This document shows, in pieces, positions 1,879 to 4,509 of a DNA stretch of 64,000 nt. A program made the translations under genes and the position numbers. How positions within the stretch are numbered: the stretch's first letter is position 1; each line of letters starts with the position of its first letter. Source of the stretch: Desulfosediminicola ganghwensis (GTDB lineage Bacteria; Desulfobacterota; Desulfobulbia; Desulfobulbales; Desulfocapsaceae); contig NZ_CP050699.1 of NCBI RefSeq assembly GCF_005116675.2, forward strand, positions 434,001 to 498,000, given 5' to 3'. The notes beneath the pieces were generated by a model that did not search any database, was not told the DNA's origin, and saw only the letters and a program-made list of their open reading frames with translations.

Positions 1879-2778
1879 TTACAGATTACGCAGTGCCTCG
1901 ATTCGTTTATCGATTGGCGGGTGGCTTCGGAAGAATTCAGCCATACCACCTTTTCTCGGCCGAATACCGAACGCAGCGACCTGCTCTGGCAACTGTGATG
2001 GTTCATGATGCGCCTGCAACCGCTGCAGCGCGCCGATCATCTTGTCCTTGCTGGTCAGATATGCTGCACCGCGGTCGGCGGTAAATTCCCGTTTTCGTGA
2101 AAACCACATGACGATCATCGAGGCAAAAAGTCCAAACACGATCTCCAACACGATGACGACTGCTATATAACCGAAAAAGCCGAGGCCGCCCCCTTCCTCG
2201 TCACCCAGGAAATTACTGATAACATTCGCTGCGATGCGGGACAGGAAGATAACAAATGTATTCAATACCCCCTGAATTAGAGTGAGGGTTACCATATCAC
2301 CGCACGCGACGTGGGTCATCTCGTGGGCCAGTACCGCCTCGACCTCATCGCGTGACATATTCGCCAGCAGACCAGTGGATACGGCAACCAGTGCATCGTT
2401 TTTCTTCATGCCTGTGGCAAAGGCGTTCATGGCTGGCGAATTGTAAATCGCCACCTCCGGCATACCGATCTCTGCTTCCTTTGCCATGCGGGCTACGGTA
2501 TCGTACAACCATTTCTCAGTCGGATTAGCCGGTTGTTCGATGACATGGGCTCCGGTTGATTTCTTGGCGATCCATTTCGACATGGCAAGGGAGATAAATG
2601 ACCCACCCATACCAAACAACGCCGCCATAACCAGCAGACCGGATGTAGATCTGGAGTCAATCCCCAGAACACTCATTACTACCCCCAGCAATACCAGTAT
2701 TGCCAGGTTGGTTGCGAGAAACAGACCTATTCGTAGCACGCTTCGCCTCCTTTGGAAAATTTGGACGTTCTGAAACAT
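1879..2778 (-). CDS. htpX: Membrane zinc metalloprotease HtpX (M48)
   Basis: HtpX degrades misfolded inner-membrane proteins. The 299-residue product has two N-terminal membrane segments (about 15-38 and 47-68), the zinc site HEMTH at residues 152-156, a second hydrophobic pair (about 165-225), and the downstream Glu-containing region [13 protein letters not shown] that supplies the third zinc ligand. The C-terminus ([15 protein letters not shown]) is typical for bacterial HtpX. Length matches the family. It is a monocistronic gene, convergent with the YchF-like gene. Confidence 0.95.
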
Positions 2779-2965: not shown

Positions 2966-3364
2966 GTGAAAGGACAAATTGCACTTTCCCATGGAAGATG
3001 GATAGCCTCCCGTAAACTTGACTGTTCCGCTGACAAGGCCTGGCTCCTGATTACAGATACCACTCTCTGGTCGACGTGGGGGCCTTCGGTGACCTCTGTT
3101 GCCTGTCGGGATACCTTCATCACTGCTGACAGCCATGGCCAGGTCGTTACAGCTCTGGGACTTCGCCTGCCTTTTGCTATCACTCGTTACGATAAAGGAA
3201 AGTTCTGGAGCTGGCGGGTCGGCAAATTCAAAGCAACCGGCCACAGGGTTATTCCCCTGACTGATTACACCTGCAGGCTGGAGTTTGATATGCCCTGGTG
3301 GGCCGCTGCCTATATCCCAGTCTGTCTTGTCGCCCTGGACAGAATCGTCAGCCTCTCCGAGTGA
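2966..3364 (+). CDS. SRPBCC (START-like) family small protein
   Basis: A 132-residue protein that resembles SRPBCC/polyketide-cyclase-like folds. Evidence is the N-terminal SADKAWLLITD helix, a WSTWGP turn, alternating strands, and a C-terminal hydrophobic helix (about 108-128). Ligand and role are unknown. The start is a GTG without a clear Shine-Dalgarno; no other in-frame start exists between it and the stop at 2927-2929. It is convergent with, and almost abuts, the selenoprotein gene. Family call is from pattern only. Confidence 0.55.
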   Translation: MKGQIALSHGRWIASRKLDCSADKAWLLITDTTLWSTWGPSVTSVACRDTFITADSHGQVVTALGLRLPFAITRYDKGKFWSWRVGKFKATGHRVIPLTDYTCRLEFDMPWWAAAYIPVCLVALDRIVSLSE

Positions 3365-3370
3365 TTTTCT

Positions 3371-3916
3371 TCAGGCCGTTTGACCAAGAGTTTTCAACAT
3401 CAGCTCAGGATCAGGATGATCACCCGCCTCCTTGCTTATATAGTGATAGATAACCTCGCCACCAGTGTTAACAATAGCGGCACCACCCAGCTGCAAGGCA
3501 CTCCCCTGCAGTGAACCTGGAGAAAAACCAGCTTTAAGAGCAGAAAACGCACGGGAAAGAGGCTTCAACCCAAATACCTTGCTCACGCCACTCTGAAACT
3601 GGAAGAGCCGAAACGATTCCCTGTCCGGATCTGTGTAGAGCTCTCCTGTGTATCCTGTGGCTCTGCGTAACGCCGGGAAATGTGCGCTATCACCTGAACC
3701 GATTACTGCCAACCGCACCTTAAGTGTATCAAATTCCGCTTTTCTTTTTTCAAGTTCAGCGACCTGCTGACGACAAAAGACTCAGCCAAAATGGCGCACG
3801 AAAACCAAAACCGCCGTCCTCTCCTCCCAGAGGCTGTTCAGCTTTATTGGCTCCCCCTGCCCGGTATACAGCCGAATTGAATCTGTCTTTTCAGTGGAGA
3901 GGTTCTGGACATTCAT
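3371..3916 (-). CDS. Selenocysteine-containing peroxiredoxin-like (AhpC/TSA, PRXL2-type) protein
   Basis: Reading from ATG at 3916 through an in-frame TGA at 3784-3782 to TGA at 3373-3371 gives 181 residues, with the TGA as selenocysteine (residue 45). The context is RHFG-U-VFC-RQQ; homologues of the AhpC/TSA_2 (PRXL2/SelL-related) family have a CxxC redox motif at this place, so the site is UxxC. The rest fits the thioredoxin fold: RLAVIGSGDSAHFPALRR, GELYTDPDR, GGAAIVNTGGEVIYHY. A SECIS-type hairpin follows the UGA (3756-3770). A conventional gene call would begin at the GTG at 3718 and lose the active site. GGAG precedes the ATG. Likely role: peroxide or disulfide redox chemistry (inferred). 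Confidence 0.88.
3756..3770 (-). promoter_or_regulatory. Bacterial SECIS element
   Basis: Immediately downstream of the in-frame UGA, the mRNA can form a perfect 5-bp stem TCAGC/GCTGA closing a 5-nt loop AGGTC. The loop carries the GGU seen in SelB-bound bacterial SECIS elements. The loop GU lies 19-20 nt after the UGA, in the usual distance range. A SelB/SelC system should exist elsewhere in the genome. Confidence 0.8.
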
Positions 3917-4287
3917 GATTTCGCCTCCGGGAAGAGTATTGTTGGAGATTTCAGACCGTAATGGCGCAAGTCATTATCAGATCATACCACGTATATAATA
4001 ATCATATAATTTTCAGGAGAAAGTGCATGTTCTGCTGCAACCCGAATGCTTGACGCCAACTGTATACTCTACTGCAATAGTGTCATATTATAACATTTTT
4101 GAGCTCTTCCCCCCGTGAACGTCTTCCGTAGCATCCGCTCCCTGCTTTTCAACCACCGGCCCTTCCTTGCAGAATTACCAAGGAATTGCTGACAAAATTG
4201 CCCTGGTTCTCTACCTGGCACGGCTGTTGCTTAATGTGAATCATAATCAGGTAAACAATTATTCCAGTCAGAACCAGTGAGGACGAT
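3917..4287. other. Divergent intergenic region with sigma-54 promoter
   Basis: This 371-bp gap separates the selenoprotein (minus) from the Nif11-type gene (plus). It holds the sigma-54 promoter listed separately and an imperfect palindrome at 4081-4095 (TGTCATATTATAACA, arms of 7 around a central T), about 150 nt before the predicted start point. The palindrome could be an enhancer-protein site, but it is AT-rich and the match may be chance. Confidence 0.4.
4216..4231 (+). promoter_or_regulatory. Sigma-54 (-24/-12) promoter for the Nif11-type gene
   Basis: TGGCACGGCTGTTGCT matches the sigma-54 consensus TGGCACG-N4-TTGCW at every defined position, with the GG and GC exactly 12 bp apart. The predicted transcript would start near 4242, giving a ~46-nt leader before the ATG at 4288. 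This implies activation by an AAA+ enhancer-binding protein. Confidence 0.8.
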
Positions 4288-4509
4288 ATGGCAAAAGCAC
4301 AAGTAGAAGAGTTGTTAATCGCAGGAGGAACGGATTCGAATTTGCGCATGAAGTATGATGCACTGAAAACGATGGATGATTTCCTGGCCGCCGCCGAGAG
4401 CGATGGTTACGAGTTCAGCGCCGATGAGCTGGAAGAAGTGCTGAGGGAGTCGGGTGACTCATTCGAATCCTTTGGAAATCCACCAAAGAGAATGATCTGG
4501 TGGTTTTAG
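4288..4509 (+). CDS. Nif11-domain small protein (leader-peptide-like)
   Basis: A 73-residue acidic protein with a Nif11/NHLP-type helical region over residues 1-55 (AQVEELLIAG, LKTMDDFLAAAESDGYEFS, ADELEEVLRES). Nif11 domains occur as leaders of ribosomal peptide precursors and as free-standing proteins near nitrogen-fixation genes. Here there is no Gly-Gly cleavage motif, no Cys/Ser-rich core and no maturation enzyme nearby. The tail is a short basic-aromatic segment, PPKRMIWWF. GTGAGG precedes the ATG. The perfect sigma-54 promoter upstream and a strong terminator downstream make this a regulated single-gene unit, so a free-standing role is more likely than a peptide precursor. Confidence 0.75.
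   Translation: MAKAQVEELLIAGGTDSNLRMKYDALKTMDDFLAAAESDGYEFSADELEEVLRESGDSFESFGNPPKRMIWWF

Follow-up and report, generated by a model that had tools for sequence, protein, structure and literature searches.

The window, the whole stretch of DNA that was analysed, covers 64,000 nucleotides from Desulfosediminicola ganghwensis. When TGA is read as selenocysteine (Sec), a gene of 181 codons was identified on the minus strand, running from the ATG at 3916 to codon 181 at 3374. A single internal stop is present within this frame, the TGA of codon 45. The resulting protein of 181 amino acids starts with MNVQ, carries RHFG-U-VFC in the motif context FVRHFGUVFCRQQVAE, and ends with GQTA. Under translation table 11, the ORF listing returns only the shorter frame with a GTG start, in which the active site is missing. 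The first frame of the plus strand from 3371 to 4065 was also considered and was rejected, as six stops, three of them TGA, interrupt it. The features of the locus and its neighbours are listed in Table 1.

Table 1 Positions of the predicted selenoprotein gene, its internal features and the neighbouring genes within the window.
Feature	Position	Strand	Basis or remark
Whole selenoprotein gene (predicted)	3371..3916	-	Translation; PF13911, PF00578 and NF040769 matches; terminal TGA 3373-3371
In-frame TGA, codon 45, first position of UVFC	3782..3784	-	Translation; aligns with Sec or Cys in homologues
TGT of Cys48, the presumed resolving residue in UVFC	3773..3775	-	Translation; codon +3 is Cys in 17/17 close relatives (window included)
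GGAGG, Shine-Dalgarno-like, seven bases before ATG 3916	3924..3928	-	Sequence
Apical hairpin of putative bacterial SECIS, stem TCAGC/GCTGA, loop AGGTC	3756..3770	-	Pattern scan; codon restriction in relatives
115-aa table 11 ORF without active site	3371..3718	-	ORF listing
Protease HtpX	1879..2778	-	
Polyketide_cyc2 protein	2966..3364	+	Ends six bases from the selenoprotein stop codon
Small Nif11-type leader peptide	4288..4509	+	PF07862, E 1.2e-12; TIGR03798, 33.4 bits (cut-off 32.3)

The translated protein matches PF13911 (AhpC-TSA_2) with an E value of 2.9e-14 and 53.8 bits (cut-off 27), and PF00578 with an E value of 1.9e-8 and 34.7 bits (cut-off 26). The first-pass annotation had placed a hidden selenoprotein here without stating the strand. 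It had claimed that the frame upstream of the GTG at 3718 stays homologous to AhpC/TSA_2 through the TGA, and that standard gene calling would give 115 residues without the active site. Both claims are borne out on the minus strand, in a single frame that shows homology before and after the TGA, with the TGA shared by relatives and with the Sec machinery genes in the genome. The gene model is thereby corrected, since plain ORF calling cuts the protein to a fragment that lacks its active site. A true start at GTG 3718 would make the upstream part a relic. This start is the one listed under table 11; however, the 66 upstream codons and the motif are conserved in relatives, and ATG 3916 has a well-spaced GGAGG. 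The probability that the protein starts at the GTG is therefore negligible.

The relatives were examined at the position of the TGA. A homologue was found in 33 of 97 related genomes, the window's own genome included, with 39 matches that each contain at least one TGA. In 38 of the 39 matches, the TGA lies at the same active-site position in an RHxx-U motif; the other match is a more distant peroxiredoxin. Thirty of the 39 were examined as loci, and the motif is UxxC in 29 and UxxU in one (L122, match 1501-1926 on the minus strand), where TGA occupies both motif positions. Among the remaining nine matches, eight carry the TGA in the RHxx-U motif. The ninth, L151 (G004:C5:160937-161212), is the different peroxiredoxin with its TGA in the motif GRWUPFC, and by its sequence it is probably another selenoprotein. 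A search of genome contigs kept 80 of 92 qualifying stretches; both motif positions are Cys in 80/80 kept loci, a result partly built in by search patterns that included RHFGCVFC, with C for Sec. The TGA column is Cys or Sec in all homologues aligned, so that the TGA falls at the first active-site Cys, as had been proposed. A profile search of a phylum sample gave 22 matches in 21 of 198 genomes. One TGA, counted anywhere in the match, is present in 13 of these matches, no stop in eight and a TAA in one. This sample overlaps the set of 97 genomes, and G000 (the window's genome) and G089 are among the genomes with one-TGA matches.

A TGA acting as a true stop would point to a peroxiredoxin-like gene in decay, or else a Cys codon would have been changed to TGA by an error in sequencing. 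The frame is otherwise intact. In related genomes, 38 matches carry the same TGA, and a single error cannot be common to any two of them. Because the relatives share the TGA, it is unlikely that a corrected sequence would read TGC or TGT.

The RNA just downstream of the TGA was examined for a SECIS element. A stem of five pairs is formed by 3770-3766 with 3760-3756, and its loop AGGUC (3765-3761) starts 16 bases after the TGA. A G in the apical loop and a place shortly after the UGA are expected of a bacterial SECIS, and this hairpin has both. It also agrees with the earlier description of a SECIS-type hairpin with GGU in the loop at the right distance. The same hairpin type stands behind 33 of the 2541 TGAs of the window on both strands (1.3%), under rules that were drawn up after the window hairpin was seen. 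With a looser hairpin, and with at least 30 open codons before and at least 40 after the TGA, 14 window TGAs were retained, and only this one has a Cys two to three residues away. At gathering scores, Rfam gave no match anywhere in the window.

The strict hairpin is present in 15 of the 17 close relatives, among them L100 in a shifted register; it is missing in L106 and L108 and in all 13 loci from L110 to L122. Free folding of 54 bases gives the window-type hairpin in most of the 17, and L095, L103, L109 and L108 fold otherwise. The codons within the hairpin were compared with those elsewhere in the same genes, in tests that ignore the kinship of the loci. The Arg codon is CGT in 15/17 close relatives versus 12% elsewhere, the Ala codon GCT in 16/17 versus 19%, the Val codon GTT in 12/16 versus 29%, and the Glu codon GAA in 12/14 versus 48%. 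The two Gln codons are CAG in 17 and 16 of the 17 close relatives versus 72% elsewhere. These hairpin codons are fixed beyond codon usage, which argues strongly against a chance hairpin.

The genes for selenocysteine insertion were searched within the genome of the window. The first-pass annotation had named selB, selC and selD among the genes to look for, and all three are present: tRNA-Sec (selC) with 75.4 bits and anticodon TCA, selB with 384.7 bits, and two selD genes over the cut-off (G000:C1:3466679-3467602, also L123, and G000:C1:4914234-4915163). Each selD has one inner TGA, which suggests that both are probably Sec-containing selenophosphate synthetases. No match to selA was obtained in this genome with TIGR00474 or PF03841, the latter being over its cut-off in 51 of 58 genomes. 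Located by synteny with genomes of the same genus, the place of selA falls in a stretch of N, both in the genome of the window and in one genome of the same genus, for which reason a real loss of selA is not claimed.

At an E value of 1e-60, selB was found in 26 of 33 gene carriers versus 59 of 64 non-carriers, and the co-occurrence of the gene with selB says little. Six of the seven carriers without selB at this threshold were searched again, and none was over the cut-off; a C-terminal selB piece lies near a contig end in two, and no clear piece was seen in four. G014, G028, G038 and G045, all of one genus, carry the TGA gene with no selB over the cut-off in their drafts, and in G050, another genome of this genus, part of selB lies close to the end of a contig. 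The missing selB genes in the carrier drafts are probably assembly gaps.

The selA gene that was not found and the carrier assemblies without a full selB would fit a TGA that is a true stop or an error. Set against them, in addition to the shared TGA and the intact frame, are the constrained hairpin codons and the machinery genes that are present, and a true stop or an error is considered highly improbable. The TGA could also be read through as another residue, such as Cys or Trp, by a suppressor or by a sulfur-charged SelB machinery. Other systems are known to insert Cys at Sec codons, and the column is Cys in distant homologues. However, tRNA-Sec, selB and two selD genes are present and the hairpin is placed where SelB would need it, and insertion of another residue has only a very small chance of being correct.

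Sec insertion at codon 45 is thus strongly indicated by the sequence evidence. With high confidence, the gene is taken to encode a redox selenoprotein with a thioredoxin fold, of the same kind as AhpC-TSA_2, SelL-related and PRXL2 proteins, in which UGA 45 would be read as Sec through SelB, Sec-tRNA and the hairpin. The product is very probably a small protein of antioxidant type whose apparent stop codon encodes selenocysteine. From the family to which it belongs, we infer its redox function, and its fold and redox step are proposed on the same basis. In the proposed mechanism, SelB and Sec-tRNA would decode the UGA of codon 45 as directed by the in-gene hairpin 16 bases downstream. The selenol of Sec45 would then attack an oxidised substrate, which may be a peroxide, a disulfide or an endoperoxide. 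Cys48 and Sec45 would next be joined by an Se-S bond inside UVFC, and the motif would be reset by a thiol reductant of the cell.

The relationship to known families was further compared. NF040769, the NCBIfam SelL-related redox protein, aligns residues 18-176 to positions 10-172 of its 173-position model with an E value of 5.1e-33. All 34 rows of alignment A2, which were chosen by hand, match this model at an E value of 1e-5 or better. Among solved structures, the nearest in sequence is the prostamide/prostaglandin F synthase 9us9, with an E value of 3.8e-18 alone and 1.2e-21 with a profile. In the profile alignment it spans residues 18-180, and its GCVVC faces GCVFC, with Sec sent as C. The kinship to SelL-related and PRXL2 proteins that had been proposed is upheld by the near full-length NF040769 match and by 9us9. 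However, with Sec sent as Cys, the NF040769 score of 114.2 bits is below the cut-off of 120, and the window protein is therefore regarded as a close relative and is not filed as a member. It is a Sec-containing relative of SelL and SelU (PRXL2), a known kind with a new member.

Within the SelU or PRXL2 family, which includes prostamide/prostaglandin F synthase, the solved relative 9us9 aligns across residues 18-180 of the window protein and has Cys where the window protein has Sec. This solved relative makes the question of the substrate testable. SelL is thioredoxin-like with Sec at the first motif position, and UxxU is its mark. The window protein shares the Sec at the first position with SelL of aquatic animals and marine bacteria, but it has one Sec in a UxxC motif. 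Its UVFC lacks the UxxU mark of SelL in the narrow sense, and L122 is the only UxxU form among the relatives. Sec forms of SelU1-3 have been reported in invertebrates, and the SelU3 branch is called prostamide/prostaglandin F synthase (PMC3473315). SelL is counted among Prx-like proteins in PMC2398784, which also describes marine Prx-like UxxC and UxxU forms, and is treated as a family with two Sec in PMC3473315. A Prx-like thiol:disulfide oxidoreductase has been reported in Desulfotalea, Syntrophus and Geobacter species (PMC1794560).

A total of 119 selenoprotein families or subfamilies is given in PMC13188914. They include the Prx-like thiol:disulfide oxidoreductase, entered under PF00578 with UxxC/UxxU, as well as a peroxiredoxin-like cd02970 family with UxxS; NF040769 was not found in its family table in the form available. 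The oxidoreductase has a domain in common with the window protein, in a comparison by description only. The AhpC/TSA selenoprotein of pfam13911 is likewise given with UxxS (PMC9312934). This pfam13911/cd02970 selenoprotein has the same domain as the window protein, whereas UVFC is UxxC and departs from UxxS. A well-supported UxxC Sec clade is thereby added to the family given as UxxS under cd02970 (PMC13188914, Table 1). PxxxTxxU is the motif of Sec-form peroxiredoxins (PMC13188914). The window sequence FVRHFGUVFC has no T three residues before Sec and differs from this typical peroxiredoxin motif, PxxxTxxC/U.

A second placement of the hairpin was identified in 21 loci (L108, L110-L122, L145-L150 and L152), with a loop AGUU from 25 bases after the TGA. 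Codons +9 and +10 from the TGA are CAG TTG in 21/21 of these loci, and Leu is TTG in 12% (28/225) elsewhere in the same genes. The stems have at least five pairs with changing letters in 20 of the 21, such as GGCGC/GCGCC, CTGGTAC/GTACCAG, CTGTCAC/GTGGCAG and CTCTCGC/GCGGGAG; L119 has four pairs. Counted from codon +3, which encodes the second motif residue, the loop begins at 16 bases, and this is the same spacing as from TGA to loop in the window's group. Codon +3 is TGA in L122 and Cys in the other 20 loci.

Phylogenetic analysis was performed on 58 of 110 rows with the motif residues masked; 30 of the 80 Cys rows were picked by hand, and the partial Sec rows L109 and L110 were dropped. Fifteen Sec rows including the window form a clade (100/99); it nests together with Cys rows from Myxococcota, Dormiibacterota and Actinomycetota (97/80). 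Another clade (100/100) consists of 12 rows with the second placement, and L108 falls outside both clades, weakly supported. A tree in which all 28 Sec rows are held together is disfavoured (p-AU 0.03), which is modest evidence given the long branches and the hand-chosen Cys rows. The tree is silent on gain versus loss of Sec. The SECIS placements at 16 and at 25 bases from the TGA may thus sit in separate lineages. Should both be confirmed in a wider set, they would make the history of Sec in the family readable. Tentatively, and with somewhat less than even confidence, it is proposed that at least two separate lineages of the superfamily have Sec at this residue, and that every one of them has a SECIS of its own. 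A UxxU (diselenide) form with its SECIS set for the second Sec would be the ancestor of the AGUU group; in most members, Cys would now stand at that position and the first UGA would be decoded across the longer distance. If this is true, the place of the RNA element would record the gain and loss of Sec.

The surroundings of the gene were also compared. A conserved operon was rejected after ORF clustering of 17 loci with flanks of about 1.5 kb, in which no neighbour was common to more than three loci; only the gene itself and one loose cluster, drawn from eight loci and made up mainly of ORFs overlapping the gene, were more widespread. A relative of the Polyketide_cyc2 neighbour is found near the gene in L102 as well. 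Judged by its profile matches, the Nif11-type peptide is a possible RiPP precursor.
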